From the NCBI GenBank assembly GCA_027532905.1, contig JAPZUA010000001.1:1175950-1239949 (forward strand): a stretch of DNA of 64,000 bases, given 5' to 3'. The notes beneath the pieces are model-generated. The model was given only the letters and a program-made list of their open reading frames with translations. It had not been told where the DNA came from and ran no database searches. The translations under genes were made by a program, and so were the position numbers. The stretch's first letter is position 1; the number at the start of each line of letters is the position of its first letter. This DNA comes from Magnetospirillum sp. GTDB lineage: Bacteria; Pseudomonadota; Alphaproteobacteria; CACIAM-22H2. This document shows positions 1 to 15,390 of this stretch, piece by piece.

Positions 1-628
1 TTGCTTTCCACAGCGCGAGCGGCTCTGCGCCTGCCTTGACCCCGAGCACAAACACCTCGGCAAGAGCCGCCTGCATGGCCTGACTGGCGCTGTTGTGAAC
101 AAGCTTTGTTACTAAGCCGGCACCAATAGCGCCAACATACGTTGGCTTGTCGCCCATTGCCTTGAGAACTGGCTTGAACCTGCTGAAAACTGCCCGATTA
201 CCGCCAACCCAAAATGCCATTCTCCCGCGCTTTGCACCGAGAGCGCCGCCGCTGATTGGGGCATCAAGCAAGTGGCAGCCCTTTTTCAGGAACGCCTCAT
301 TCAGCTTCTTGAGCAAGCCAATCGAGTTCGTAGAGGTTTCGAAGCAAGCACCACCCTCGCGCATGCCTTCGAGAATGCCGCTGGGGCCAACCGTCGCCGT
401 CTCAATCGCCTCAAGGCTTGGAAGACAAGTGAATACCACGTCGCTCCGCGCCGCTGTTTCAGCCGCGGTGTTTGCCCATTGCGCCCCTGCGGCAATCTGC
501 TCTGAAGCGGCGTCAGCACGAAGGTCGCTTACGATGATCCTGTACCCGGCGCGAAGCAGACTCATCGTCATGGGCGCGCCCATGACGCCGATCCCAATGA
601 ATCCAACGACCGGCCGCGCGCCGGACAC
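1..628 (-). CDS. 3-hydroxyisobutyrate dehydrogenase-family oxidoreductase (3' end cut off)
   Basis: NAD(P)-dependent beta-hydroxyacid dehydrogenase family; 209 residues are visible, against about 290-300 in the family. The N-terminal Rossmann motif GIGVMG lies near residues 12-17, the substrate-binding motif DAPISGG near 122-128, and the catalytic lysine near residue 175 in GLVTKLVHN. The start is a GTG whose G is also the last base of the upstream monooxygenase stop (TAGTG), so the pair is translationally coupled and probably one transcript. It may oxidise or reduce a 3-hydroxy acid or tartronate-semialdehyde-like intermediate of the same catabolic route; the true substrate cannot be told. 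The end lies beyond the left edge of the window. Confidence 0.88.
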   Translation of the reverse strand, partial: MSGARPVVGFIGIGVMGAPMTMSLLRAGYRIIVSDLRADAASEQIAAGAQWANTAAETAARSDVVFTCLPSLEAIETATVGPSGILEGMREGGACFETSTNSIGLLKKLNEAFLKKGCHLLDAPISGGALGAKRGRMAFWVGGNRAVFSRFKPVLKAMGDKPTYVGAIGAGLVTKLVHNSASQAMQAALAEVFVLGVKAGAEPLALWKA

Positions 629-2313
629 TACGACGCAACCTTCTGGGGTGTTTCACCAGAAGCTCTGTACGCAGCACCTGCACCCCGCACCACCTCCACA
701 ATATGCTCAGGATTATCGATGGTCGTGCCGCGCCAGGCTACATGACCGTCGGGCCGGACGAGGACGAGCGGCATCTCGTAAAGATCAGCGATGCTGGAAT
801 CCGTGATCCGCTCGACAACGAACGGAACTCCGCGGCGCGCAAAGGCAGCCGCAAGCAACTCCGTGTCCGACTTATTCGAGAAGGCGAGAAGGACAAATTT
901 CGCCCCGAAAAGATCAAGCATCGACCGTCCGTCCGCAAGCCATGCATGGGGTGCTCGGGAGCCAGGGCGTGCTGTCGGCACATAGACTCGGAAGTCGTCA
1001 GGAACCGGCGGCGTTCCGTCAGGAATGCAGATCGGGGAGCCTTCGTAACGATGACCGATCTGCAGGCCGAGCGACTCCCACTCGACACGGGTCGACTCCC
1101 GCAGTCGTCCTCCAACGCTTTCACGAAGACGCCGACCTTCGTCGGTGTCGTCAGCGATCGCACGGGTATCGGGAACATCGCGCCAAGCATTGTAGTTGGA
1201 TGTCGAGAAACGGAGATTGCGCGCAGCGATCGGACGTCGCTCGGCTTCGTAACTTGCGAGCAGCTCGGAGCCCGCCCATCCTTTCAGCACGGCATCAAGC
1301 TTCCAACCGAGATCGAAAACCTCTTGCATCCCGGTATTCATGCCCATTCCACCGGTCGGCGACGTCGTATGAGCAGCGTCACCGACAAGGATTACGCGGC
1401 GATCGAGGAAGCGCTCAGCAAGCAACTCACTCCGGCGCCACGGAATAACCGAATCCACTCTGTATGGGATATCATTTGCCCCAAGCGCGCGACGCACCCA
1501 GTAGTCAGCGTCGAAAGTATCCAAGTTCATTTTCTCTTGGGACCCTAGGACGGTGATGCGCCAAACCGCGTCGCCATCCACGACCGTCATGTTGCCCCAA
1601 GTCCCTTCAGCATCTGTGAAAATATAGCGCTCCGCCTCTCCCATCCGGTGCTTCTTCGTAAGGCCAGGAGCGGTAATCAGAATGTTAATCGAATAACTGA
1701 GAAGCCGACCCTGCATCTCAATGCCCAGAGCAGTTCGAATACTGCTTCCGGCGCCATCGCAGGCAAGAAGATAGTCGGCATGAACCTCGAGCTCGTCGCC
1801 TGTAGCTAGGTCTGTCACGTATCCAACGACCGAGCTGTCGTGTTGAACAAAGCGATTGAAGCGATGGCCGTATCGCAAGTCATTACACGCGTAATCGCGC
1901 GCTGCATCCGCGAGGATTGGCTGCATCCACGATTGCGGGCACCGTTGCTTCTTTTCCGGCGTTTCTGGCGGCGTCGGCGCTGCCCGCATGCTTGGATACG
2001 GCTCTTTGGCAATAAGATGGCCGTTGAGTGAGGTGCAGAAAACCATGGATAGCTCGTAGTCCGGAGGGAAACCGGCATTGCGGATTCGGTTCGCAATCCC
2101 CCACTTGCGCGCAAGCTCCATCGTCCGGACAATGATCAGTCCGGTGCGGGGATGCGCGACATCGCCGCCGCCCTCGTCGATCACAAGCGTCTTGATGTTC
2201 CTGGAGCCGAGCTCGATCGCCATGCCGAGACCAACTGGACCAGCGCCGACAATCAAAACGGGGACGTGGATCGATTTTGCCGAATCGGGCTGTCGGCTGT
2301 TGGCCTGTGTCAT
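628..2313 (-). CDS. FAD-dependent aromatic hydroxylase (PheA/TfdB/MhpA type)
   Basis: Flavoprotein monooxygenase of about 561 residues, the usual size of class A phenol-type hydroxylases. The ADP-binding GAGPVG motif is near residues 23-28, the DG motif (CDGAGSS) near 185-191, and the FAD-ribityl GD motif (GDAAHTTSP) near 311-319. The C-terminal part fits the thioredoxin-like tail of the phenol hydroxylase group. An ATG at 2340 is also in frame, but the ATG at 2313 has a strong GGAGGGG ribosome-binding site 4 bases upstream, and the longer form would start inside the palindrome at 2340-2356. It is coupled to the downstream dehydrogenase and divergent from a LysR gene. It probably hydroxylates an aromatic substrate using NAD(P)H; the substrate is unknown. 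Confidence 0.9.
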   Translation of the reverse strand: MTQANSRQPDSAKSIHVPVLIVGAGPVGLGMAIELGSRNIKTLVIDEGGGDVAHPRTGLIIVRTMELARKWGIANRIRNAGFPPDYELSMVFCTSLNGHLIAKEPYPSMRAAPTPPETPEKKQRCPQSWMQPILADAARDYACNDLRYGHRFNRFVQHDSSVVGYVTDLATGDELEVHADYLLACDGAGSSIRTALGIEMQGRLLSYSINILITAPGLTKKHRMGEAERYIFTDAEGTWGNMTVVDGDAVWRITVLGSQEKMNLDTFDADYWVRRALGANDIPYRVDSVIPWRRSELLAERFLDRRVILVGDAAHTTSPTGGMGMNTGMQEVFDLGWKLDAVLKGWAGSELLASYEAERRPIAARNLRFSTSNYNAWRDVPDTRAIADDTDEGRRLRESVGGRLRESTRVEWESLGLQIGHRYEGSPICIPDGTPPVPDDFRVYVPTARPGSRAPHAWLADGRSMLDLFGAKFVLLAFSNKSDTELLAAAFARRGVPFVVERITDSSIADLYEMPLVLVRPDGHVAWRGTTIDNPEHIVEVVRGAGAAYRASGETPQKVAS

Positions 2314-2339
2314 TTCCCCTCCCATGTTCGCTTGCCGCA

Positions 2340-2356
2340 TTGACTAACTAAGTCAA
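2340..2356. promoter_or_regulatory. Palindrome in the hydroxylase/LysR divergent promoter
   Basis: TTGACTAACTAAGTCAA has perfect 6-base arms (TTGACT/AGTCAA) around 5 bases. It sits in the short gap between the two divergent starts (2313 and 2403). LysR regulators usually bind interrupted dyads in such gaps and control both genes, so this is the best operator candidate. The TTGACT arms could also double as -35 elements. Confidence 0.5.
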
Positions 2357-2402
2357 CGTCCGTATTAATGTCGAATTGAATTTTGAAACCTGGAATATTC
2401 AT

Positions 2403-3329
2403 ATGCTGAATGGCGTCGATCTTAATCTTATGCGCGTGTTCGCGGCCGTCGATGCCGAACGCAACGTGTCCCGAGCGGCATCGAAGATCGGCTTGACTCA
2501 GCCTGCAATGAGCAACGCGCTCTCGCGGTTGCGTCGAGTCTTCGACGACCCATTGTTCGTGCGGACCCCCTCGGGTATGGAACCGACGGCGCTGGCGCTC
2601 GAGATGGCCGGCGCGGTACACGAAGCCCTTGTTCATTTCGAGCGCGCATTCGGGGGCCCGCGTGAGTTCAATCCGCAACGGGTCATACGTCGTTTCCGAA
2701 TACTGATGTCCGACGCCGGCCAGATTGTTGTCCTGCCAACCCTGATGCGCGCGCTGTCGTTGAGCGCGCCAGGCATAACGATTGAGGCGGTTCAGATCCC
2801 GCGAGAACAGGTCGTCGAATCGCTCCAAAGCGGTTCGGCCGACATCGCGATCAGCCATTTATCCTCGCTTCGGGCCGGAATCTATCAAGAGCCGCTGTTC
2901 GACGATTCCTACTGCTGCGTGGCCTCCGCAAAACACCCCGTTTTGAGAGGATCGATCAGCGCACAGCAATTTGCAGCGGCAAAACACGTCGCGATCGCTT
3001 CGGGAAACGCAGAAGCGCTCGTCGAGCGGACACTTTCGAAGAAGCGACTGACCCGTGACATCGCATTGATTGTAACGCAATATCATATCGCCATCGAGGT
3101 AGTGCGCACCACCCGCTTGGTCGCAACAGTACCCCTCCGCTCGGTCCGCTCGCGGACCGACGTCCAAGTCATGGCGCACCCCTTGAGTATTCCGAAAGCG
3201 CAAATTCGTATTTTCTGGCACCGACGCGTAAACAATGACCCGGCCAATCAATGGCTGCGAAGATTCCTTCGCGAGACGCTCGTTCCGAAAAGCGAAACAT
3301 CCCCCGTCCCGGAGAAGAAAAATGAATGA
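2403..3329 (+). CDS. LysR-family transcriptional regulator
   Basis: 308 residues, typical of LysR proteins. The winged helix-turn-helix is within about residues 5-65 (LNLMRVFAAVDAERNVSRAA, then a TQPAMSNALSRLRR recognition region), followed by a periplasmic-binding-protein-like effector domain. The ATG at 2403 is preferred over an upstream in-frame TTG at 2376 because the conserved N-terminus begins just after it. Divergent to the FAD hydroxylase and overlapping the next gene by 8 bases, it probably senses an aromatic inducer and controls the hydroxylase operon. It may also control the importer operon downstream. Confidence 0.9.
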   Translation: MLNGVDLNLMRVFAAVDAERNVSRAASKIGLTQPAMSNALSRLRRVFDDPLFVRTPSGMEPTALALEMAGAVHEALVHFERAFGGPREFNPQRVIRRFRILMSDAGQIVVLPTLMRALSLSAPGITIEAVQIPREQVVESLQSGSADIAISHLSSLRAGIYQEPLFDDSYCCVASAKHPVLRGSISAQQFAAAKHVAIASGNAEALVERTLSKKRLTRDIALIVTQYHIAIEVVRTTRLVATVPLRSVRSRTDVQVMAHPLSIPKAQIRIFWHRRVNNDPANQWLRRFLRETLVPKSETSPVPEKKNE

Positions 3330-3759
3330 TGTAGCCAAGCGGCTCGACGAAATCGAAGCTCGGATCGCAATTAGCGAGCTGCGCTCGGCGTATTGTTGGT
3401 ATACGACGCGCGGCGAGCGGGATCTCGTAGTAGATCTGTTTACCGAAGACTGTGTCTTTGAGAATAATCGCGCTGAAGGGGAGAATCCGGCGATCGCGAT
3501 AGGAAAGTCGGCGCTGCGCGCATATCTCAGCAAAATGGCACCCGGGCGGCGGATCCCCGTCGTCATGAACGAAATTCTGTCCGTATCGGAAGATCGTGCA
3601 TCCGGCACATGCGTCATGCAGTCCTTCGGTAGTGATCCGTTCTGCGGGCACTATATAGACGAGTTCCTGAAGATATCTGGCTCATGGAAGTTTTCCGCCC
3701 GCCGTTTCTTTCCGTACTGGCCTATCTTCAAGCCGGACAAAGTCCGTCGAAAACCCTAG
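3322..3759 (+). CDS. SnoaL-like (NTF2-fold) protein
   Basis: 145 residues with the features of SnoaL_4-type proteins: an N-terminal helix (LDEIEARIAISELRSAYCWY), the pattern RDLVVDLFTEDCVFEN and a closing FSARRFFPYWPIF strand. Members are small cyclases, hydratases or isomerases of aromatic and polyketide metabolism, and many accompany ring-cleavage genes. The ATG at 3322 overlaps the LysR stop by 8 bases and is preceded by GGAG. Its stop and the stop of the convergent hydrolase share one CTAG. Its function here is inferred only from context. Confidence 0.75.
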   Translation: MNDVAKRLDEIEARIAISELRSAYCWYTTRGERDLVVDLFTEDCVFENNRAEGENPAIAIGKSALRAYLSKMAPGRRIPVVMNEILSVSEDRASGTCVMQSFGSDPFCGHYIDEFLKISGSWKFSARRFFPYWPIFKPDKVRRKP

Positions 3760-4628
3760 CGTTGCGAAGGTCCTGTACGCGCTGCCTGAACTGCTGAGCG
3801 AGCAAAGTCGGCGAGATAGTTTGCGACAGTTTCAGGACTCTCAATCATCGGGAAATGCCCGGTATCGGACATCACCTTTATGTCAACAGCGGTCGACAGA
3901 CTGGAGAGTTTGCGCATCAGCGGCGTCTCTGTTGTTGGGGTCATGAATGTCCTGCCGAAGCCGGCCTGGAATTGCGTCGATTGGATGAGCAGTATCGGAA
4001 CGCGCACAGAGCTCCATGTGCTGTTTCCGACGGCCGCCTCCCAGCGTATCGAATCGATCAGTATCTGCGCGCCAAGCTCCGCGTCGATGCCACTCGCCCG
4101 CTCGACCACACGATCAACAATGCTACGCTCGACTTTCGCGGGAAACATTGCTTGAAAGGACCGATTCACGAACCCTCGAATCCCGTCGCGCGCGAGGTCA
4201 CCGTTGAGTTCGGCGATCTGGATCTCCGGATCACCGACATAGATGCTCCCGTCGACGAATGCGAGGCCGGCCACGGCTTGCTTCGACTGCCGGTAGCATT
4301 CCCGAATGACTTTTGTGCCCAAGCTATGACCGACAAAGACCACGTCATTGAGTCCGAGACTATCGACAACCGCGTTCACTTCCTTTGCGAACGTCGTGAT
4401 TGAGTTCTCTTCGAGTGGCTTTGACAGGCCGTGGCCGGGTAGATCGACCGCAACACAGGCGAATCGGTCCGACAATTCGAATATCGTCGCATCCCAATCG
4501 TCGAGAGAGCATCCGAAGCCATGAACAAAGACGAGGTTGGGACGCCCCCCGCCGACCACTCTGAAGTTCAAGTTAGCGGGCATCGGGCCTACAACATCAT
4601 CGGCCAAGTGATCTAACCTCGGAATCAT
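3756..4628 (-). CDS. Alpha/beta-hydrolase
   Basis: 290 residues with an alpha/beta-hydrolase fold. The oxyanion region is FVHGFGCSLDDW near residue 34, the nucleophile elbow GHSLG near 100-104 (Ser102), and the catalytic histidine lies in SDTGHFPMIE near 262. It is the last gene of the leftward importer-dehydrogenase operon, 43 bases after the aldehyde dehydrogenase. Related enzymes hydrolyse esters, lactones or ring-cleavage C-C bonds; a meta-cleavage type role is possible but not shown. No signal peptide is seen, so it is probably cytoplasmic. Confidence 0.85.
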   Translation of the reverse strand: MIPRLDHLADDVVGPMPANLNFRVVGGGRPNLVFVHGFGCSLDDWDATIFELSDRFACVAVDLPGHGLSKPLEENSITTFAKEVNAVVDSLGLNDVVFVGHSLGTKVIRECYRQSKQAVAGLAFVDGSIYVGDPEIQIAELNGDLARDGIRGFVNRSFQAMFPAKVERSIVDRVVERASGIDAELGAQILIDSIRWEAAVGNSTWSSVRVPILLIQSTQFQAGFGRTFMTPTTETPLMRKLSSLSTAVDIKVMSDTGHFPMIESPETVANYLADFARSAVQAARTGPSQR

Positions 4629-4671
4629 GCGACACGCTGCCTTTCAGACTCCGGAATTTGAATGCGTGACA

Positions 4672-6108
4672 TCAGACAAGACCCACAGTCTTTCTTCTAA
4701 GAAACTCGTCGAGGCCCGCCCGGCCGCCTTCATAGCCGATGCCGCTTCGTCGGTACCCTCCGAATGGCGCGCCAGGGTTCGTCCGGCTCGCGTCGTTGAC
4801 GTAGACAGTTCCGCTCTTGAGCTGCGCGGTAACCCGGATTGCGCGCCGAAGATCGGCGGTGTGAACGTAATTAGAAAGCCCGAACTCAGTGTCGTTCGCC
4901 GCAGCGACCGCATTCGCCTCGTCCGCGAACGGTACAATCGACATAACTGGTCCAAATATCTCTTCTCGTATTAGCGCGCTGTTTGAGTCCACATCCTCGA
5001 ACACCGCTGGCTCAACGAAAAATCCTTCAGAGAACGGGTGCGACAGAGCAGGTACCTTGCCGCCTGAAATCAACTTCGCTTCTTTTCGGCTTGTTGACTG
5101 ATTGATCAGCGCAACAAGCCGATCACGAGCGACAGCCGAAACGACCGGTCCCATCGTCGTCCGCTCGTCGAAAGGGTCGCCGAGCACGATTCCATTTGCA
5201 TGCTCGACCAGTGCCGCCCTGAAAGATGCATAGACACTCTCGTGGACATAGATCCTTGAACCAAAAGTACAAGATTGTCCGGCGTTCGATAGGCCTGCGC
5301 AGACGACTTTCGTTGCGAGGCGGACATCCGCGTCTGAGAAGACGAGGTGCGACGACTTACCGCCGAGTTCGAAGCAGAACGGCTTCACCAGCGGCGCCCC
5401 AGTCCGCATCATCGCCGAAGCGGCTCGCAGCCCTCCGGTGAAAGATATCTTCTCGACATCCGGATGTGCCACGAGGGTCTCACCCGCCTCCACGGCGCCA
5501 GGAACTATGTTCACCACACCAGCAGGGATCCCAGCTTCGACGCATGCTTGCGCGAATAGCAACGGGGTATATGGGGTTATCTCCGATGGTTTGACGACAA
5601 CGGTGTTACCCGCCGCAAGTGCAGCCGGGATCTTCATCGTTAGAGACAGCAACGCCGAGTTCCAGGTAAGGACGATTCCAATCACGCCGTATGCTTCGAA
5701 CCGCGTGTACTCGAAACGACCGGCATCGAGCGAAGCCGTAACATCCCCGCCGATTTTATCGGCCCAGCCTTGGTAAGTCCGGATCCAATCGACGGCAAAT
5801 CTATGCCTAGCTGCGAAAGAACGCGCAGGCATACCGACCTCCGCCGCGGCAAGTGTCCGAAACTTACCTTCCCACGCCTCAACGATGTCAGCCAGCTTCC
5901 CGATCCGCGCCCGACGTTCGGTCGGACCAATTGATTCCCAGAGCGGCGCGGCACGTTTCGCAGCGGCGACGGCATGCCTAATTTCTTCAGCCCCACCAAG
6001 AACGACTGTTCCATTAATCTCTCCAGTCGCCGGATAGATGTGGCTTATCTCCCCGCCACTTCCGGCCGGGAGAAAAGCGTTCTCGATGAATATCTCGTTC
6101 TTCAACAC
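4672..6108 (-). CDS. NAD(P)-dependent aldehyde dehydrogenase
   Basis: 478 residues, full length for the ALDH superfamily. Catalytic Cys280 lies in NAGQSCTFGSR, the general-base Glu247 in FELGGKS, the cofactor lysine in VVVKPSE near residue 173, and the oxyanion Asn150 in LTWNSA. The usual glycine-rich FTGSTxxG loop reads FTGGLRAA, a mild deviation. The start is GTG with a weak ribosome-binding site. It lies downstream of the ABC importer after a gap carrying a strong hairpin. It probably oxidises an aldehyde arising from the imported compound; the substrate is unknown. Confidence 0.9.
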   Translation of the reverse strand: MLKNEIFIENAFLPAGSGGEISHIYPATGEINGTVVLGGAEEIRHAVAAAKRAAPLWESIGPTERRARIGKLADIVEAWEGKFRTLAAAEVGMPARSFAARHRFAVDWIRTYQGWADKIGGDVTASLDAGRFEYTRFEAYGVIGIVLTWNSALLSLTMKIPAALAAGNTVVVKPSEITPYTPLLFAQACVEAGIPAGVVNIVPGAVEAGETLVAHPDVEKISFTGGLRAASAMMRTGAPLVKPFCFELGGKSSHLVFSDADVRLATKVVCAGLSNAGQSCTFGSRIYVHESVYASFRAALVEHANGIVLGDPFDERTTMGPVVSAVARDRLVALINQSTSRKEAKLISGGKVPALSHPFSEGFFVEPAVFEDVDSNSALIREEIFGPVMSIVPFADEANAVAAANDTEFGLSNYVHTADLRRAIRVTAQLKSGTVYVNDASRTNPGAPFGGYRRSGIGYEGGRAGLDEFLRRKTVGLV

Positions 6109-6168
6109 TTGACGCGTTCCACTTTCTGTCGTTCGTCACCCTATCGCGGATGTCAGTCTGAGCGGTAC

Positions 6169-6205
6169 GGCCGGGTGCCCGACATCCCCTGACGGGCACC
6201 CGGCC
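6169..6205 (-). terminator. Strong hairpin between binding-protein and ALDH genes
   Basis: Arms GGCCGGGTGCCCG and CGGGCACCCGGCC pair perfectly over 13 bases with an 11-base loop. No T-run follows on the minus strand, so a classic Rho-independent terminator is unlikely. Hairpins like this after periplasmic binding-protein genes often stabilise the upstream message and reduce expression of distal genes. Confidence 0.6.
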
Positions 6206-6216
6206 TTCGCAAGTCA

Positions 6217-7800
6217 TTACGTAAGCTTTACTGACTCAAGTCGCGTGGCATATGGATCGCCCGCCGGACGTATCCATTCGGCAACCTTCCGCGTCGCCGC
6301 CCATTGCGAGTTCGACCACGGCCCTGTCCCGAATAGGAAATTGTCGTAGCAGAACTTGTGCATACGCTGAGCGATGGCCATTTGCTTGTCCGTATCGACC
6401 TCTGCCAGCATCGCCGCATGCATCGCATTTAGCTCCGGAACGTTATCGGTTGAGCCCCATTGTGCGCCGGTGATGAGCCAACCGGCGGTAGTCCGAAGAT
6501 CATTCTCGAATGCGATCGACTGGATTCCGGCGCCGGTGAGCTGCCGGTTGACCAGGCGGCTAATGTAGGTCGAGGCCTCAAGCATGACGATTTTCGGCTT
6601 CAATCCTATGCCGCCCCAGTAACCAGCCACGGCTTGTGCAATTTCTGGAAGATTTGCGTAAGAACCGGACGGATAAGCCATCAGATCGAACTCAAAACCT
6701 TCCGCACCGGCCTCCCTAACCAACCGCCTGGCGCGCTCCGGATCATGCTTCCGGACCGCAAACAAATTCGCGTCGAAGCCTTTGCTCGCGGGGAAGACAT
6801 GCGCATTGGGACTCGGCGTGCCCTGACGAAGCAAGCCGCGTACAATTTCATCTTGGTTTACGGAGATCGTAAGCGCTTCTCGGAACCGCACGTCGTTCCA
6901 AGGTTTGATGCCGCGCTGGACGTCGAAGTAGTTAACTTTCATAATTGCCGTTTCCGGCGCCCGGAAGATCTTAAGATTGGGATCAGCAGCAATCTGCATA
7001 CCCTGGACGCCAGTAATCCCATCTATAATGTCGACTTCACCGGATCGGAGCTGCGCCATTCGGGTTGTCACCTCCGGCACAACATTCATTCGCACGGTTT
7101 TCACATTCGAAATTCGGTCTTTCCGGTAATGCCGTTCGTTCGCCTCCATTTCGATAAACGCGCCGATCTGGTTTCGGACGAGTTTGAACGGCCCCGTTCC
7201 CATAGGCTGGGTCCGGAACGCGTCTGGTCCGACTTTCGTGAAATGCGCCTTCGAGGACACATTCCACCAGATTGTGAACTCCGCCGTCCGCATCGGGGTC
7301 GGATTGAAGAGCTTCATCACGACTGTCCGCGCGTCTGTGGCTACAACGGACTCAATTTGTCGTTTTAAGCCGGGTACCTGCGGCTGCGGCGGGTTGCGCG
7401 TACTGAACGCTTCCCACGACCACGCGACATCCTCAGCCGTCACCGGCGAGCCGTCCCAGAACACGGCGTCGCCACGAATCGTGAAGGTGACGGTCTTGCG
7501 GTCGGAAGAAACATCCATGCCTTCCGCAAGATCGAACTCGAGTTGCCCCTTGTCGTCAAACCGGAAAAGCGCATTGTAAAGTGAATAGCCGATTGGGCGC
7601 GCGAGACCACCGCCCTGAAAGAACGGATCGACGGACTGGTCCGTGAGTGACGTCAGAGCGATCCGAAGTGTTCCCGCCGGTGCAGCATTGGCCCGCTTCG
7701 ACACGAGCGAGCCTCCGACCGCAAGCGCCGACGCTGCCGCAGCGCCGATGAAGAGTTCGCGTCGATTTAGGCTGGCAATCAGATCTCCTGGATTCGACAT
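6217..7800 (-). CDS. ABC importer substrate-binding protein, peptide/nickel family 5
   Basis: 527 residues, normal for DppA/OppA-type proteins. The N-terminus has a twin-arginine-like motif (NRRELFIG), a hydrophobic stretch and an ANA-like cleavage site near residues 38-40, so export by Tat is likely. Family-5 features include the ALTSLTDQSVDPFF start of the mature domain and a central WNDVRFREALTISVNQDEIV region. It is the fifth gene of the leftward importer operon. Such proteins carry peptides, opines, glutathione or other small molecules; the catabolic neighbours argue for a degradable substrate rather than a peptide. Confidence 0.9.
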   Translation of the reverse strand: MSNPGDLIASLNRRELFIGAAAASALAVGGSLVSKRANAAPAGTLRIALTSLTDQSVDPFFQGGGLARPIGYSLYNALFRFDDKGQLEFDLAEGMDVSSDRKTVTFTIRGDAVFWDGSPVTAEDVAWSWEAFSTRNPPQPQVPGLKRQIESVVATDARTVVMKLFNPTPMRTAEFTIWWNVSSKAHFTKVGPDAFRTQPMGTGPFKLVRNQIGAFIEMEANERHYRKDRISNVKTVRMNVVPEVTTRMAQLRSGEVDIIDGITGVQGMQIAADPNLKIFRAPETAIMKVNYFDVQRGIKPWNDVRFREALTISVNQDEIVRGLLRQGTPSPNAHVFPASKGFDANLFAVRKHDPERARRLVREAGAEGFEFDLMAYPSGSYANLPEIAQAVAGYWGGIGLKPKIVMLEASTYISRLVNRQLTGAGIQSIAFENDLRTTAGWLITGAQWGSTDNVPELNAMHAAMLAEVDTDKQMAIAQRMHKFCYDNFLFGTGPWSNSQWAATRKVAEWIRPAGDPYATRLESVKLT

Positions 7801-7849
7801 TTCGTTTCTCCCTTTTTTGCGTTTTTGTTGGCGTTTTCAGGTGTGGACT

Positions 7850-8815
7850 CTATCCGGCAAAATGGCAGGCAACGCGATGGCCGGGGGCAATCTCCCGAAG
7901 CGTTGGCGCTTCGGCGGCGCATCGATCGGTTGCCGACGGGCAGCGGGTCCGGAAACGGCAGCCGCTCGGCGGATTCATCGGATTCGGCAGGTCTCCGCTG
8001 ATTCGGCCTTCGAGATTTGGATTGCGCGGATCGGGCGGAAGGGAGGCCTCTAAAAGTCCCTGCGTATAGGGATGCTTCGGCGTGCCGTATATCACGTTGG
8101 CTGGCGCTGCCTCGACGATCGTACCGAGATACATCACGATCACGTCGTCACTCATGTAGCGTACGGCACCGAGATCGTGGGCGACGAATATGTAGGCAAC
8201 GCCACTCTTGGCTTGGAGATCCTTCAACAAGTTCAGAACTTGCGCGCGGATTGAAACGTCGAGCGCGGAGACGGGTTCGTCGAGCAGAATCAGCTTTGGG
8301 CTGGTCGAGATCGCGCGCGCAATCGCGATCCGCTGGCGTTGTCCACCGCTGAATTCGTGCGGGTAGAGCGCTGCCGCCGATTTCGGAAGCCCTACGGATG
8401 TTAAAAGCGCATCAAGTCGTTCGCGTACGACTGCGCTGCGACCGAAGTTGACAAGAACTGGCTCCATGACCGATTCCTCAACCTTGTGTCGCGGGTTTAG
8501 AGAACTGTAGGGGTCCTGGAACACCGCCGAGACCGCCCGTCGAAACTCGCGCAGGCCGTTGCGATCCAGATCCCAGATTCCGTCGCCGAGAAAACTCACC
8601 TCACCTTCGGTCGGCGGCTCAATTCTAAGAATCATTCGGCACAAGGTCGTCTTGCCGCATCCGGATTCGCCGACAATCCCAAGAACTTTTCCCGCTCGGA
8701 TATCGATCGAGACTCGATCGACCGCAGTAAGAGAGCCAAAACGCTTGGTAACGCCTTCAAGTCGCATGAGGGGTGCGGCGGGTCCGTGTGCCGTGCCAAA
8801 AGTTGTAGCTGTCAT
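7850..8815 (-). CDS. Oligopeptide-type ABC importer ATPase (OppF/DppF-like)
   Basis: 321 residues. Walker A GESGCGKTT, signature FSGGQRQRIAIARA, and Walker B LILLDEPVSALD are all intact. The C-terminal oligo_HPY extension with its cysteines (GCRFRTRCPSATDRC) marks the OppD/F family. Its ATG overlaps the stop of the preceding ATPase by 4 bases. It forms a heterodimeric ATPase with the next product, energising the two permeases. Confidence 0.93.
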   Translation of the reverse strand: MTATTFGTAHGPAAPLMRLEGVTKRFGSLTAVDRVSIDIRAGKVLGIVGESGCGKTTLCRMILRIEPPTEGEVSFLGDGIWDLDRNGLREFRRAVSAVFQDPYSSLNPRHKVEESVMEPVLVNFGRSAVVRERLDALLTSVGLPKSAAALYPHEFSGGQRQRIAIARAISTSPKLILLDEPVSALDVSIRAQVLNLLKDLQAKSGVAYIFVAHDLGAVRYMSDDVIVMYLGTIVEAAPANVIYGTPKHPYTQGLLEASLPPDPRNPNLEGRISGDLPNPMNPPSGCRFRTRCPSATDRCAAEAPTLREIAPGHRVACHFAG

Positions 8816-9834
8816 GCGGCACCTCCGTTCGTCGATCGCAGCCGCTCATGGACGACCCAACACGCACTCAGATGACTTGCGGAGAGAGCCACATCGGGCG
8901 GCACTTCCCGCCGACATATTTCGCTTGCCTCGCGGCACCGCGGTGCAAACGCACAGCCCGGTCCGAGCTTGCGCACGTCAGGTGGCTGCCCGTCGATCGA
9001 GAACAGCCTACCATTTTCGTCGGTTTCAACGTTCAACGAGCGCATAAGCGCCTTCGTGTACGGATGCGACGGCCGCTCAAAGAGCTCGGCGAGCGGGGCC
9101 TTTTCGACAACCCGACCAGCATACATGACCGCAACGTCGTCGCAGACACGCGCGATTACTGCGAGGTCGTGGCTGACCATGATCATGCCTAGTTGGAACT
9201 CCCGCTGCAGCTCACGCAAAAGCTTGAGAATTTGGAGCTGGATCGTGACATCGAGTGCCGTCGTTGGTTCGTCACACAGAATCAAGGCAGGATGGCACTC
9301 CAACGCCATCGCGGTCACAACCCGCTGGCGCTGACCGCCGCTCAATTGATGGGGATAGCTTTCAACTCGTGATTCCGGAGCCGGTATTCCAACCCGTCGC
9401 AGGGCAGCGACAACTCTCTCTTTGAGTGTCGCCTTATTCCGAACATTTTGATGCTGGCGCAGCGGTTCCTCGAGTTGATTCCCAATCGAGTAAACCGGAT
9501 TGAGCGATGTCATTGGATCCTGGGTGACAACGGAAATCTGCGCACCGCGAATTTGGCGCATTTCGTCCTCGGAAAGCTTGAGGAGATCCTTACCGTTGAA
9601 AAGTATTTCTCCACTTTCGATGTTCCCAGCCGGTTTTGCGACCAGTCGGACGATCGACATCAGCGTCACACTCTTTCCGCTTCCCGACTCGCCGACGATC
9701 CCGAGCGTACGACCGCGCTCGACAGTCAGCGATACCCCGTTGACAGCCCTGCTCACGCCGTTTCGCGTCCGGAACGTCGTGGTGAGGTTCTTCACCTCGA
9801 GAAGTGGAGCCTCCTTCATGACTTGCTCGGTCAT
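8812..9834 (-). CDS. Oligopeptide-type ABC importer ATPase (OppD/DppD-like)
   Basis: 340 residues. Walker A GESGSGKS, signature LSGGQRQRVVTAMA, Walker B LILCDEPTTALD, then the oligo_HPY tail (GPGCAFAPRCREASEIC). It overlaps the upstream permease gene and the downstream ATPase gene by 4 bases each, which indicates translational coupling within the importer operon. It pairs with the OppF-like protein on the cytoplasmic face. Confidence 0.93.
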   Translation of the reverse strand: MTEQVMKEAPLLEVKNLTTTFRTRNGVSRAVNGVSLTVERGRTLGIVGESGSGKSVTLMSIVRLVAKPAGNIESGEILFNGKDLLKLSEDEMRQIRGAQISVVTQDPMTSLNPVYSIGNQLEEPLRQHQNVRNKATLKERVVAALRRVGIPAPESRVESYPHQLSGGQRQRVVTAMALECHPALILCDEPTTALDVTIQLQILKLLRELQREFQLGMIMVSHDLAVIARVCDDVAVMYAGRVVEKAPLAELFERPSHPYTKALMRSLNVETDENGRLFSIDGQPPDVRKLGPGCAFAPRCREASEICRREVPPDVALSASHLSACWVVHERLRSTNGGAA

Positions 9835-10691
9835 AGCTGACGGAACCTTGGGTCAAGTCGAACGCGCAGCCAGTCGCCGAGAATGTTGATCGACATAACG
9901 ACGAGAAAGATTGCGATTCCTGGAACGGCGACAAGAGAGGTCTGGAAGCCGATAAAATTCTTGCCGGAAGCAAGCATACCCCCCCATGTCGCCTGCGGGG
10001 GTGGTACGCCGAGCCCAAGGAAGCTCAGCGACGCCTCTACGACAATGGTGGCGCCGAGTTGAAGCGTTGCCAAAATCACTAACGGATTGATGATGTTCGG
10101 TAGGAGGTGCCGGAAGAGGATGCGCGTGTTGCTGCAGCCGGCCACTTTCGCAAGCTTAACAAACTCCATCTCGCGCAGACGCAGGACCTCACTGCGGAGG
10201 ACGCGCGCGTACCCGGCCCAGCTCATGAAGATCAGGGTCAAGATTAGATTTTGCGTACTAGCACCGACCGCGCCGACCACCGCAATAGCAACCAAGAGAA
10301 AGGGCACGGCAATGAAGACCTCGCACATGCGAGATATCAAGTTATCGATCACACCACCAAAGTAGCCTGATAGGAGAGCAAGGAATGTCCCGATCGAACC
10401 GGCACCCACGACGACGGCAAAACCGACAAGCAACGAGATTCTCGCGCCACTGATCAAACGGCTCAGCACGTCGCGGCCAAGGTCATCGGTTCCGAGAATA
10501 TGCTCGAAGGTGCCACCGAGAAATACCGGCGGCAGATGCGAGTTCATCAATCTGACGGTATTCGGATCGTGCGGCGAGATGACTGGCGCCAGGAAACCAA
10601 CGACGATCAGAGTCGCAATGATCCCGATGGGAATAACCGGAGCGCCGCGCAGCGCGTCTCGAACGGACTGAACGGAGAGAGCGTATGCCAT
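9831..10691 (-). CDS. ABC importer permease (DppC/OppC-like)
   Basis: 286 residues with several hydrophobic segments and the inner-membrane component EAA-like loop (EMEFVKLAKVAGCSNTRILF). The N-terminus carries the OppC_N pattern (APVISPHDPN) and the family sequence ILGTDDLGRDVLSRLI. Its start overlaps the upstream permease stop by one base. Partner of the DppB-like permease. Confidence 0.92.
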   Translation of the reverse strand: MAYALSVQSVRDALRGAPVIPIGIIATLIVVGFLAPVISPHDPNTVRLMNSHLPPVFLGGTFEHILGTDDLGRDVLSRLISGARISLLVGFAVVVGAGSIGTFLALLSGYFGGVIDNLISRMCEVFIAVPFLLVAIAVVGAVGASTQNLILTLIFMSWAGYARVLRSEVLRLREMEFVKLAKVAGCSNTRILFRHLLPNIINPLVILATLQLGATIVVEASLSFLGLGVPPPQATWGGMLASGKNFIGFQTSLVAVPGIAIFLVVMSINILGDWLRVRLDPRFRQL

Positions 10692-11605
10692 CAGCGCCGA
10701 ATCCGGGGATCGATAAGGCCATAGAGGATGTCTACGGCCAGATTTAACAATACAATCCCCGACGAAGAGATGAATACGATCGTCTGTACGAGAGGATAGT
10801 CACGCGACTCGATTGCTTGGATCGACAACTGTCCGATTCCGGGCCACGCAAAAATGTTTTCGACGATTACCGAGCCACTTACGAAGAAGACCAATTGCAG
10901 CGAGAACATCGTCATGATCGGCAGCACCGCATTGCGGAAGGCGTGCTTCCATACAATCACGTGCTCGGGCAGGCCCTTCAAACGGGCGAGCCGGATGTAT
11001 TCGGCATGAAACACGTCGAGCATCGACGATCGAGTCATTCGCGTCAGGGAAGCCAACGAGAACCATGCGAGCGCGATGGAGGGCATGATAAAGGACTGCC
11101 ACTGTCCCATCCCCGATGTCGGGAGCCATCGCAGATTCACGGCGAAGATTGCGATCATGAATATTGCGATTGCGAATGACGGTGCGGCCTGACCAATCAT
11201 AGCAAGAACGTTTGCTGCCTTATCGACGAGGCTGCCGGCACGCACAGCTCCATAGACCCCGATCAAAACGCCGCCGGTCGCCGCTAGAAGTGCCGCAAAG
11301 AATCCAAGTTGAGCGGTCCGCGGGAGCCGTTCGAGATAGACCTCGATTGCAGGTTGGCCAAAGCGGAAGGACGTGCCGAAATCGAACGTGACTGCACCTT
11401 TTAGGAAGAGCCAGTATTGGGCAAGTAGCGGCCGGTCTAGACCGAGCGCTTGGCTGAGAGCAATTCGGTCCGCAGGCGTTGCATCCGGTGGGATTAGCAA
11501 AGACGCAGGATCGCCGCTCAGGCGGGCGAGCACGAATACGATAATGCTGATGCCAATGATCGTCGTAATTGCCTGGGCAAAGCGCGACAATAGATAGCGA
11601 GTCAT
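10691..11605 (-). CDS. ABC importer permease (DppB/OppB-like), first gene of the operon
   Basis: 304 residues. The N-terminal segment (SRFAQAITTIIGISIIVFVL) and the ARLSGDPASLL motif are typical of DppB-type permeases, as is the EAA-like loop near EYIRLARLKGLPEHVIVWKH. It is the promoter-proximal gene of the leftward operon permease-permease-ATPase-ATPase-binding protein-ALDH-hydrolase. An inverted repeat lies just upstream. Confidence 0.92.
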   Translation of the reverse strand: MTRYLLSRFAQAITTIIGISIIVFVLARLSGDPASLLIPPDATPADRIALSQALGLDRPLLAQYWLFLKGAVTFDFGTSFRFGQPAIEVYLERLPRTAQLGFFAALLAATGGVLIGVYGAVRAGSLVDKAANVLAMIGQAAPSFAIAIFMIAIFAVNLRWLPTSGMGQWQSFIMPSIALAWFSLASLTRMTRSSMLDVFHAEYIRLARLKGLPEHVIVWKHAFRNAVLPIMTMFSLQLVFFVSGSVIVENIFAWPGIGQLSIQAIESRDYPLVQTIVFISSSGIVLLNLAVDILYGLIDPRIRR

Positions 11606-12139
11606 GCCCGCACCGTATACGCGACAAAACGCGTACCCGCTGCACAGGCGAGGGCAGGCGTATAGTCGATCATTGCTTCAATGTACCTGTCTGAAATGGC
11701 TGCATCACATAGCGCTGTCGGAGAGGGCGGGACTTCTGTGAACGTCACATGAGGCCTCTATTCGGGGCGCTCTGAAACGATTTACTGTTTGCTTCGGCTT
11801 GGGCGTGCAGACACGGCACGCTTCGATGTTTCCTCCGACGAAACCGATGTTGGGTCTTCGTGTTGTTTTTGTGCTTGATGTAAGCAAGTGACGGCGAGGT
11901 TAGGAGCAATCCGACTCTGTGTAAACTTTCTTGATAATGGTGATTTGCTAAATCAGTTTTATGAATATGGCTGTCACATTCTTTGTATGTTTGGGTTCTG
12001 GTCGCCACACAAAAGACTGCTCATTCTTGATGGCGTTTTCTGCGATTCCGCGCTTCGGCATATACAGGCACGTACTTTATCTACCGACAGGCGCTCTTCA
12101 GTGGCGAATTCTCTAAATTGTACCTGCTTTAACAAGCGA
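11606..12139. other. AT-richer non-coding gap upstream of the importer operon
   Basis: No convincing gene is seen. An inverted repeat TACGCG-N6-CGCGTA at 11618-11635 lies 13-30 bases before the first permease start on the minus strand and could be an operator or 5'-leader structure. The importer promoter must lie in this gap but no clear -35/-10 pair stands out. Two weak reading frames near 11745-12196 lack ribosome-binding sites and family features. Confidence 0.4.
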
Positions 12140-12183
12140 TGGCGTCTCCTAGGGGATTCGAACCGCTATACTGACCGTGAAAG
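12140..12183 (-). other. tRNA-Glu-like 3' half (candidate attachment-site remnant)
   Basis: Read on the minus strand, this 44-base stretch follows tRNA-Glu from the anticodon loop (CTTTCAC, anticodon TTC) to the terminal CCA. The T-arm and acceptor part is GGTTCGAATCCCC followed by TAGGAGACGCCA. Spacing matches a real tRNA exactly, but the T-stem has a C-C mismatch and no 5' half precedes it. Starting in the anticodon loop is what tyrosine recombinases leave behind at tRNA targets. Its 3' end points left, away from the integrase gene. Confidence 0.6.
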
Positions 12184-12242
12184 TGACGACGATTAGATCA
12201 ATGGAGTGGGGTCCGCTGATTAGTCTCTACAGTGCCTTGCTT

Positions 12243-13646
12243 TCAAGCCGAACTCGGTCGCCTTGTTGCGATATCGATGACCTTGGCCGAAGAGCTTGAC
12301 GCCGTTACCTCAGCATTAGGTAATGCTGCCCGACCTAAGGCTCTCGAAATGCGGGTTGAATTTGCTTCGACGGACGCACGTAGCGGGTCGTCCGGCAAAT
12401 GGGCGTATTTCTTAGTCGTCCGTATATCGGCATGGCCGAGCATGCGCGCGACTTTGACTAGAGTGTCGCCAGCACCGGTGGCGTTAGTGGCAAACGAGTG
12501 ACGTAAGTCGTGCAGCCGAACATGCGGTATTCCCGCCTTCGCGCGCAGCCGTTCCCAGACATGTGCGAGGCCGACAAAGTGTTTTCCCGCTTGATGGCCC
12601 ACAAACACGAAAGGGTTATCGTTGAACCGCGGCTGTGCATCGATGATCGCCGCGACCTCCCGCGAAATCGGAATCGTTTTTTTGCCCGTTTTTGAGTCTG
12701 GGAGAAGCAGCACCCCTCGTTCGAGATCGACCCAATCCCAACGCAAGGCCAAGATCTCCATTTTCCGTGCACCAGTCATTGCAAGCACCAAGATCGCACA
12801 TAGAGCGACGGGATTTTCACCTCGGCGCGGCGGCAGGGGACGTTGGTCCTTTTTTGCAGCGGTGCATTCAGCCTCCCAGTCGAGCCAATCGCGCTCAGCC
12901 TGATGGAGTGCTTTACCAAGTTGGTCCGTTTCATTCGATTTTAGGTAAGTCGTTATTTCGTTCGATTTGAAAAGCGTCACGCCCTTGGCGGGGTTCGACT
13001 TCATGTACTTTTGGGAGATCGCCCACGCGAAAATCGCAGCGAGGAGCGCCGTAGATCGCGCAGCGATCCCCTTGCCGCCGCGCACGTTTGCAACACCGCG
13101 TGGCCGGGTTTTTTCGCGCTTCTTGGACTTGCCGGCGGCAACGTCGTCCTGGAATCGTTTGACATCGACTTGTTCGACCCGAGTTACGATACGAGCACCT
13201 AGCAAGGGCTTTATATGGCGCTCAATATTGGACCTGTCCGTCTCCAAAGTGCGCGGCTTCTTTGGGCGGCCCTTCCCGGGAATCAATCGGGTTTCGCAAT
13301 CTTTGACATACAAGTCGCAAAGCGCGGCGACTGTAAGCTCATCGGCTCCGATTTTGGTATCCCGGGACGGATCCTCACCCATGCGCGCGCGATGAAGCAT
13401 ATCGCTGGCGCGCGCACGCGCCGTGTCCGGCGTCCAAGGTGAGCCGTGCCGCCCGATCGTGGCCATGCGCTGCTGCGCGCTTCGGCCGCTACCCACCCGA
13501 TATTTCACAAAATAGGCTGCACCTGCTGAGGTCCTGCGCACACCGAAGCCCTTCAGCGTGTCGTCCCAAAGTGTCGCATCGATAGCGAGTGCATCGACGG
13601 ATTTCTTGGTGATCTTGCCATGTCTCTTTTCGATCTTGTCCTGCAT
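12243..13646 (-). CDS. Tyrosine recombinase / integrase (P4-type, DUF4102 N-terminus)
   Basis: 467 residues from the ATG at 13646. N-terminal DUF4102-like region (LWDDTLKGFGVRRTSAG), a core-binding segment, then an intact catalytic set: Arg in TGARKMEI near 294, HDLRH near 379-383, His in MLGHAD near 405, and the nucleophile Tyr in KKYAHL near 414. The frame stays open upstream to 13865, but that extension is the reverse complement of the tRNA-Ala half and encodes a well-known spurious peptide (EPSGIEPLTSA), so it is not protein. The enzyme probably integrates the island at a tRNA 3' end. Confidence 0.9.
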   Translation of the reverse strand: MQDKIEKRHGKITKKSVDALAIDATLWDDTLKGFGVRRTSAGAAYFVKYRVGSGRSAQQRMATIGRHGSPWTPDTARARASDMLHRARMGEDPSRDTKIGADELTVAALCDLYVKDCETRLIPGKGRPKKPRTLETDRSNIERHIKPLLGARIVTRVEQVDVKRFQDDVAAGKSKKREKTRPRGVANVRGGKGIAARSTALLAAIFAWAISQKYMKSNPAKGVTLFKSNEITTYLKSNETDQLGKALHQAERDWLDWEAECTAAKKDQRPLPPRRGENPVALCAILVLAMTGARKMEILALRWDWVDLERGVLLLPDSKTGKKTIPISREVAAIIDAQPRFNDNPFVFVGHQAGKHFVGLAHVWERLRAKAGIPHVRLHDLRHSFATNATGAGDTLVKVARMLGHADIRTTKKYAHLPDDPLRASVEANSTRISRALGRAALPNAEVTASSSSAKVIDIATRRPSSA

Positions 13647-13693
13647 GTCTCGACTTGCCCAATGATGCCGACGGCGCCGCAATGGGCCATCCC

Positions 13694-13715
13694 ATTCTAC
13701 CACCATTCTACCACC
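13694..13715 (+). repeat. Tandem 11-bp direct repeat near the attachment site
   Basis: ATTCTACCACC occurs twice back to back, between the integrase start and the tRNA-Ala half. Integrase arm-binding sites are commonly short direct repeats flanking the core crossover site, so this is a candidate arm-type site. Confidence 0.55.
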
Positions 13716-13771
13716 GAACTGGAAAACAGGGGTATCTCGGAATATCGTGTATTGATTGTTTTCAAAAGCTT

Positions 13772-13793
13772 GGCATCTCCCGGCACCTCCCGG
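13772..13793 (+). repeat. Second direct repeat near the attachment site
   Basis: GGCATCTCCCGG is followed with a 10-base period by GGCACCTCCCGG. It lies 18 bases before the tRNA-Ala half, on the element side. It is another candidate arm-type site for the recombinase. Confidence 0.5.
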
Positions 13794-13810
13794 AAACATA
13801 GTATTTTTCA

Positions 13811-13855
13811 ATGGCATTGCGGAGGTCAGCGGTTCGATCCCGCTTGGCTCCACCA
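13811..13855 (+). other. tRNA-Ala(GGC) 3' half: island attachment site
   Basis: From the anticodon loop (ATGGCAT) to CCA the sequence follows proteobacterial tRNA-Ala(GGC). The T-arm AGCGG-TTCGATC-CCGCT pairs fully, and the acceptor 3' strand TGGCTCC is followed by A and CCA. The 5' half is absent: the bases before the loop (ATTTTTCA) cannot form the anticodon stem or D-arm. This is the duplicated 3' segment expected at the far end of an element integrated in tRNA-Ala. Confidence 0.8.
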
Positions 13856-13863
13856 AATAAAAC

Positions 13864-13903
13864 AAGGGCTTAGCTGGAAACGGCTAGGCCCTTTATCTTT
13901 TTT
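13864..13903 (+). terminator. Rho-independent terminator after the tRNA-Ala half
   Basis: Stem AAGGGCTTAGC / GCTAGGCCCTT (11 bp with one mismatch) with an 8-base loop, followed by TATCTTTTTT. It begins 9 bases after the CCA end, where a tRNA transcript normally terminates. It is probably the original terminator of tRNA-Ala before insertion. Confidence 0.8.
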
Positions 13904-14187
13904 AGCTAGCACCCAGCTAGCACCAGATGGCCAAACAGCAGCTTTAGACTTCGACCAAACCCTTTCTGGCGTCGGTTCCGATTGCGTCGTTCTTCAGCTA
14001 TTCAGCTAGCCATCCGGATTTCTGAAGCAGATATCCAACGACATTGAGGACAAGCTCGCTTTCTCACTGGTCTGAGCCCGTAAACTCATCCATTCGAATG
14101 TCGATTCTGCTTCGTATTTGAGCCTGTCTGGGTGGTTGTGGCAACGGGGCGAGGACGCTTGCCGCAACAACGATCGCGCCCGCAGCA
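13904..14187. other. Non-coding stretch right of the island end
   Basis: It begins with a 10-base direct repeat AGCTAGCACC at 13904-13913 and 13915-13924. No gene with a family signature is seen up to the stop codon of the pentapeptide-repeat gene. Base composition changes here from the island type to the GC-rich core type. Confidence 0.4.
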
Positions 14188-15390
14188 CTACGGGCGTTGA
14201 CGGCGGACGGTGTCGCCCCATTGGCCGACGGTGCTCGCCGCTTTGGCATCGATCTTTATGCCGATCACGGTGGCGCTCGAGAGATCGACCCCTGTCAGAT
14301 CGGCTTGCGTAAAGTCGGTGCCGAGCATTTCGGCACCGAGAACTTTTGTGGCCTGCGCTTTGCCGATGACCTTGCCGCCATCGTCGATGAGCTCGGCGGC
14401 GGAAAGCCTTGCGCCCGCCATGATTGTGCCGGCAATTGTCGCATACGATAGATTTGCGCCGGCGAGATCGACTTCGGAGAAATCGGCGCCATCGAGGCGC
14501 GCTTTGACGAACGATGCCGATCTCAAGTTCGCGCCGCGCAGAAGAGCACCGGAGATATCCGCCTCTTCAAAACGCGCGCCGCGCAGATCGAGCCATTGAA
14601 GTTTCGCACCGGCGAGTTTCATCCTATCGAACACAGCGCGCTCGCCTTTTTTTCCCGCCGTCTCGAGCCATTGGGCGTGCTGCGTTGCGATCCACTGCAC
14701 CTCGGATGTCGTGAGAGCCGAGGATTGTGCGAAGATCCGGTTCCACTCGTCCTGTACGATTCCGTCGAATTTCGCGCCGGCGGTATTGGCGCCGGCAATC
14801 CGCGCGCCGCGAAGGTCGCAGCCGCTCAGCGACGCGCCGCAAAGACGCGCGCCGTTGAGATAGGCGCCGCGAAGATTGGCGCCGTCGAGCTTCGCTCCCG
14901 AAAGGTCGGCGCCTGCAAGATTGGTATTCTCGAATTCCGCTTCGCTCAGATCCGCATCGCGCAGCGAGCATCCGGCAAGACGGGCTCCGCTGGCTTTACC
15001 GCGAACAAAGCGGACGTTGTCGAGATTTGCGCCCAGCAGCGCTGTGGGGGTGTCTTGGGTTCCGGTAAAATTCACCTCGCGCAAATCGCAGTGCATTAAG
15101 CAAACCTGGTGCATCTGCGCGCCGCGAAGATCGGCGCTGCGCAAACTGCTTCCGGAAAGATCGGCATCGATCAGAACGACTGCGCGCATATCGGCAAGCG
15201 AGAAGTCGCAGGAAAGAAACGCAGCGCTGATGAACGACGTCCGTTGAAACAGACCGCCGGAAAGATTGAGATCGCTGACTTCAAATCCGTCGAGTTGCGC
15301 GCCAGTTACGTCGAGCCGCATGCCGTTGTCGCGCCCGAACAAGTAGCCGCCATGCCGTTTGACGAGGTCGGAAAATTCGGTTTTTTCCAC
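14188..15390 (-). CDS. Pentapeptide-repeat protein
   Basis: 400 residues, most built of A(D/N)LxG-type pentapeptides (for example ADLSGAKLDGANLRGAYLNG), forming two right-handed quadrilateral beta-helix blocks. The blocks, about residues 40-205 and 255-330, are separated by an insert near 210-250 (DEWNRIFAQSSALTTSEVQW). No signal peptide or membrane segment is seen. The start is GTG at 15390; an in-frame stop lies just upstream. Such proteins include gyrase-protecting and structural members, but no specific role can be assigned. Confidence 0.85.
   Translation of the reverse strand: MEKTEFSDLVKRHGGYLFGRDNGMRLDVTGAQLDGFEVSDLNLSGGLFQRTSFISAAFLSCDFSLADMRAVVLIDADLSGSSLRSADLRGAQMHQVCLMHCDLREVNFTGTQDTPTALLGANLDNVRFVRGKASGARLAGCSLRDADLSEAEFENTNLAGADLSGAKLDGANLRGAYLNGARLCGASLSGCDLRGARIAGANTAGAKFDGIVQDEWNRIFAQSSALTTSEVQWIATQHAQWLETAGKKGERAVFDRMKLAGAKLQWLDLRGARFEEADISGALLRGANLRSASFVKARLDGADFSEVDLAGANLSYATIAGTIMAGARLSAAELIDDGGKVIGKAQATKVLGAEMLGTDFTQADLTGVDLSSATVIGIKIDAKAASTVGQWGDTVRRQRP

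Follow-up and report, generated by a model that had tools for sequence, protein, structure and literature searches.

The tyrosine integrase gene that lies between two different tRNA 3' halves in the DNA analysed here most probably belongs to an island that was inserted into tRNA-Ala(GGC) by that same integrase, and the tRNA-Glu half on the other side of the gene appears to be a decayed foreign attachment core, which arrived with an exchange of cargo or was left behind by it (we put the probability of this reading at about 0.85). The whole stretch analysed, hereafter the window, is 64 kb long and corresponds to C1:1175950-1239949 of a genome (G000) of 4.26 Mb in 13 contigs. Its features, in window coordinates, are as follows:

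1..13855, no strand: part of the tRNA-Ala island inside the window; the island totals ~69.3 kb and starts at the intact tRNA-Ala(GGC) left of the window
1..12232, no strand: part in the window of a cargo segment absent from the island of G002; the whole segment is C1:1168941-1188181, ~19.2 kb
12140..12183, minus strand: diverged tRNA-Glu(TTC) 3' half, probable relic attachment core; 37/44 identity to the genome's own tRNA-Glu(TTC)
12243..13706, minus strand: tyrosine integrase gene; PF00589 and PF13356 above cut-off; 487 aa from the ATG at 13706
13695..13715, plus strand: likely integrase arm-type sites (P arm), two units of TTCTACCACC at 11-bp spacing; 3 exact copies in 100 kb
13809..13855, plus strand: attR core, displaced tRNA-Ala(GGC) 3' half; 47/47 identity to the intact gene
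13856..13901, plus strand (approximate limits): second copy of the terminator region of tRNA-Ala; attL and attR alike past CCA (by eye)
13905..13924, plus strand: two units of GCTAGCACC spaced by 11 bp, immediately beyond attR; they are likely arm sites belonging to a G008-type element

Extent and gene content of the tRNA-Ala island

A genome-wide tRNA check, as the preliminary description had proposed, placed an intact tRNA-Ala(GGC) on C1 and an intact tRNA-Glu(TTC) on C2. The former lies at C1:1120463-1120538 (+), 55 kb to the left of the window. The displaced half at C1:1189758-1189804, which corresponds to positions 30-76 of this gene from just before the anticodon through CCA, is on the same strand (+), and the two Ala ends span ~69.3 kb; no third copy of the Ala core was found in the genome. 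The element is an ordinary tRNA-Ala island with the integrase at its distal end, and the bracketed layout looked odd because the intact tRNA-Ala had fallen outside the window. The preliminary description had taken this layout as a departure from the simple island with two copies of one tRNA end in the same orientation; with the second Ala end in place, that departure disappears. The parts of the island have a GC content of 57-58%, whereas each flank has 66%. The likeness of the two Ala ends continues past CCA through the terminator, and at attR a stretch of 93 bp is 94.6% identical to attL of G002.

The island holds 58 ORFs of at least 90 aa. Forty-eight of them were scanned with Pfam and encode mostly catabolic enzymes, transporters and regulators; no conjugation genes (relaxase, type IV secretion) were named among these 48 of 58. 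At the left island end, a gene for a 65-aa HTH_17 protein (C1:1120763-1120960) has counterparts in G002 (91%) and in G008 (50%), the match in G008 lying mid-island, unlike the left-end position seen here. Near the same end there is also a divergent second integrase-like gene (C1:1124223-1125476), whose PF00589 match is below the cut-off and whose stretch is absent from G002. Just outside attR, low-GC DNA that is ~90% identical in G003 encodes a pentapeptide-repeat protein of 400 aa (window 14188-15390).

The integrase and the orientation of its tRNA end

The recombinase noted earlier between the two halves is indeed a tyrosine recombinase: its PF00589 match has an E value of 4e-21 and 75.9 bits (cut-off 27.1), and Arm-DNA-bind_3 is matched as well. 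The protein carries the stretches HDLRH and KKYAHL, which we take to be the catalytic stretches of a tyrosine integrase. The odd N-terminal extension arises because the open frame reads backward through the tRNA copy. A start at Met21 (~13646) is a possible alternative to the ATG at 13706, since the arm-like repeat overlaps the first codons. No integrase match other than 12243-13706 was found in the window. The integrase is 98% identical to that of G002 and 53% identical to that of G008, and a contig scan gave a close integrase in one named record, a Telmatospirillum sp. MAG (Rhodospirillales).

For the geometry of the locus, seven relatives were fetched from the best or long matches to the integrase (G002, G008, G022, G024, G029, G033 and G036). 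In all seven, a tRNA 3' end on the opposite strand precedes the matched integrase start by 103-234 bp and points outward, and the window locus, with a distance of 103 bp, is the eighth of this kind. Such geometry is therefore usual here, and the bracketing that had been described as unusual reduces, on the Ala side, to a normal attR. The best-matching tRNAs at the seven loci were Ala (two), Thr (two), Met, Lys and Gly. No intact tRNA was called at the tRNA 3' end in five of them; in G022 and G029, weak whole-tRNA calls of 33.5 and 41.9 bits, against a gathering score of 29, overlap the tRNA end, which may thus be something other than a bare half there. The Ala reading stands despite these weak calls, because its support comes from the intact tRNA and the repeat. 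A second tRNA half downstream of the integrase was seen only at the window locus among the loci compared at a threshold of at least 34 bits, of which G033 (<100 bases downstream of the integrase) and G029 (~1.7 kb) are too short on that side for such a half to show. It should be noted that the tRNA query set comprised 35 sequences from 43 predicted tRNA loci and held no tRNA-Leu, so that a tRNA-Leu (locus L106) was missed.

Not all of the more distant integrases of the same genome share this geometry, those at C2:140760 (tRNA-Val) and C2:25534 (tRNA-Met type) having the tRNA half on the integrase's own strand. At C2:140760-182807, a 45-base tRNA-Val(CAC) 3' half stands beside the integrase and an intact tRNA-Val is ~42 kb off, likely marking another island. 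The tRNA-Met(CAT)-type 3' half (C2:25534-25579), close to where C2 starts, likewise adjoins an integrase, and the intact gene (C6:171632-171706) is also by an integrase; the pieces on C2 and C6 may be one island across two contigs.

Arm-like repeats and the likely trace of an earlier element

A scan for 8-mers recurring at 8-16 bp spacing, with no motif given beforehand, returned TTCTACCACC-type pairs adjoining both Ala ends and the GCTAGCACC pair outside attR. The scan was not fully sensitive, as it gave nothing at the left end of the genome's tRNA-Glu island and one repeat at the right end. All three exact copies of TTCTACCACC in 100 kb are at island ends: two are those at 13695..13715, and the third is at the opposite end, its partner there carrying one mismatch. 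G002 has the same units. In G008, TAGCACC pairs with 11-bp spacing occur at both ends of its 9-kb island, and this is the same pair as GCTAGCACC outside the attR of the window. We infer that both the TTCTACCACC and the G008 pairs are putative integrase arm sites.

The stretch from the core through the GCTAGCACC repeats, 127 bp in length with 80 bp beyond CCA, is 94.5% identical to attL of G008, and on the strength of this likeness a G008-type element most likely occupied the tRNA-Ala before the present island. The repeats outside attR may thus be read as a sign of serial insertion at this gene.

Occurrence of the island in related genomes

The Ala core pattern, with up to 3 mismatches, was matched in eight of ten same-genus genomes: G002 and G008 have two copies, G001, G003, G004, G005, G006 and G010 have one, and no match at up to 3 mismatches was obtained in G007 and G009. 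The genome of the window and most relatives are multi-contig assemblies. The island of G002 (48.9 kb) is of the same type as that of the window, the one in G008 is a 9-kb cousin, and the layout is alike in both. In G003, the left and right flanks are together, ~85 bp apart, and just after the single tRNA-Ala copy (contig C144) there is one TTCTACCACC unit, as if the island had once been present and then lost. As this unit is still there, the single-copy site of G003 may be a scar and not a virgin site. Of 61 records from a plasmid DNA search, the best 10 match the Ala core region only; a plasmid protein search gave 2602 records, all with <60% identity.

The islands of the window genome and of G002 share 1126022-1136802 and 1136944-1168940, both with 96-98% identity, as well as 1188182-1189806, which holds the integrase and attR. 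Between the last two lies the ~19.2-kb cargo segment, whose left end is ~7.0 kb outside the window; in its place, G002 carries 144 bp of unrelated sequence. Catabolic genes and an ABC operon of the oligopeptide type are found in the segment, and the Glu half lies within it, ~50 bp from the right edge. The difference may be a loss in G002 and not a gain in the genome of the window. A clean site-specific or transposon insertion of the segment was considered and rejected, no matching repeats being found at its two ends. A DNA search with the ABC operon matched 244 of 385 genomes, and the matches listed outside its own locus are parts of the two ATPase genes.

The tRNA-Glu half

Alignment to the genome's tRNAs confirmed both tRNA identities proposed in the preliminary description as well as the start of both halves at the anticodon loop, the Glu half spanning tRNA-Glu(TTC) from position 33 to CCA. 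A match no better than chance had been named as the outcome that would count against it; the half scores 49.1 bits, compared with 29.2 for the reversed sequence. A chance origin was rejected, as this score exceeds those of all 40 dinucleotide resamples of the 100-kb region (maximum 33.7).

The half lies 60 bp past the integrase stop codon. No further Glu fragment of at least 28 bits was found elsewhere in the island, the same not fully sensitive scan gave no 8-mer that recurs 8-16 bp apart within 11841-12500, and a comparison with seven integrases gave no integrase remnant beside the half (best E 0.43). Rightward on the same contig, an intact tRNA-Glu on the minus strand is absent, tRNA-Glu(TTC) being on C2; a tRNA-Glu(CTC) lies to the left of the half, at C1:429162-429237. 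An exact 31-base Glu pattern had no match in viral contigs, a 43-base pattern with up to 3 mismatches had none in 16 relatives, and a 25-base pattern with up to 1 mismatch was matched in 31 of 385 genomes of the class, exactly in its own genome only. A 655-base DNA search matched 20 of 23 genomes of the order, but apart from its own locus the matches were confined to the surroundings of the tRNA-Glu stretch. These searches of viral contigs, 16 relatives, 385 class genomes and 23 order genomes thus gave no source element for the Glu half.

The genome carries a 22.6-kb island in its tRNA-Glu(TTC) (C2:1055199-1077850), which has an exact repeat of 48 bp and, at its distal end, an integrase of its own; a GTACGGAA repeat with 11-bp spacing is near its attR. 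G016 has an orphan Glu 3' half, and no match to the window integrase was found among the long ORFs in the 12 kb fetched around it. Given this island and the orphan half, tRNA-Glu is a used integration target in this group. In our view, the half in the window is most plausibly the remnant of a dead attachment core within a mosaic island.

Probable origin of the two tRNA halves

The following course of events would account for these observations. The island of ~69.3 kb would have entered tRNA-Ala(GGC) through its own tyrosine integrase, which would have catalysed a crossover at the anticodon loop; the attP of the island would have rebuilt the tRNA at the left (attL), and the old 3' half would have been displaced to the right (attR), beside the integrase gene. 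The integrase probably binds the paired, 11-bp-spaced arm sites flanking the core, and the HTH_17 protein at the left end is a likely excisionase. The Glu half would stand outside this Ala system as the decayed core of another, tRNA-Glu-type element, and may have been carried in with, or left by, the exchange of ~19.2 kb of cargo beside the integrase gene. The recombination between two islands suggested in the preliminary description fits in this mild form, with the Glu half inside a segment absent from G002, and is not supported as a re-ordering of Ala and Glu sites.

Such a re-ordering, by inversion or recombination between the Ala and Glu attachment sites of two islands, would make the outward halves true ends, and the opposite orientation of the two halves agrees with it. 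However, the Ala island is complete, its two ends being correctly oriented, the genome's tRNA-Glu island is complete as well, on another contig and with its own 48-bp repeat, and paired repeats adjoin the ends of the Ala core, with none found by the scan at the Glu half; the inversion proposed earlier is thus highly improbable. A switch of target, also proposed there, supposes that the integrase lineage formerly used tRNA-Glu, with the Glu half as its old core, and took up tRNA-Ala later. The position of a Glu 3' half that starts at the anticodon loop, so close behind the integrase stop codon, speaks for it. Against it, the integrases of G002 (98%) and G008 (53%) use tRNA-Ala and have no Glu half at a threshold of at least 34 bits, the tRNA end is upstream and not downstream of the integrase in the seven relatives, and the scan found no arm-like repeats at the Glu half, which leaves the switch very unlikely. 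A bivalent island, with Ala and Glu cores on opposite sides of the integrase and either site usable, we regard as extremely improbable.

It is also conceivable, and in our view unlikely, that the Glu half is a stray tRNA fragment which came in with the cargo and is unconnected with any integrative element. Its diverged sequence would agree with this, as would the results of the search for an integrase remnant and of the repeat scan, neither of which returned anything at the half. Nevertheless, its extent, from the anticodon loop to CCA, is that of attachment cores, and Glu 3' halves are also found at the genome's own Glu island and in G016, where the half is an orphan. A foreign core, decayed in the cargo of a tRNA-Ala island, is the reading that we prefer.

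Wider meaning and comparison with known systems

The locus illustrates that a tRNA island of the ordinary kind may seem strange when it is cut by the edge of a window. For comparative purposes it is a clean case as well: the arm-like repeat pairs differ between related integrases that share one tRNA-Ala, and the trace of one element sits beside another at the same gene. The Glu relic adds one more example of mosaic cargo adjoining an integrase gene and, together with the outer arm-like repeats, provides modest signs of island turnover.

In the Islander paper (PMC4383910), a tRNA island consists of an intact tRNA gene and a displaced 3' fragment in the same orientation, with the integrase between them and a crossover centred on the anticodon. 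The Ala island agrees with this description in its intact tRNA, its cognate fragment in the same orientation, its tyrosine integrase and its anticodon-centred crossover, and nothing seen in the island itself departs from Islander-type tRNA islands. The Glu half differs, having no cognate intact tRNA placed according to the configuration and orientation rules given in that text.

In a table of the same text (PMC4383910), tandems of at least two islands account for 125 entries. Unlike tandem or serial islands at one tRNA, the outer element here is only a trace, with no third Ala core in the genome and no second integrase in the window; like them, the locus has a second arm-like set outside attR and a probable earlier element at tRNA-Ala. 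With regard to the prokaryotic tRNA gene fragments treated in PMC9897764, the Glu half differs in that it is not firmly tied to a specific island, and resembles them in that it is likewise a partial tRNA without its 5' half.
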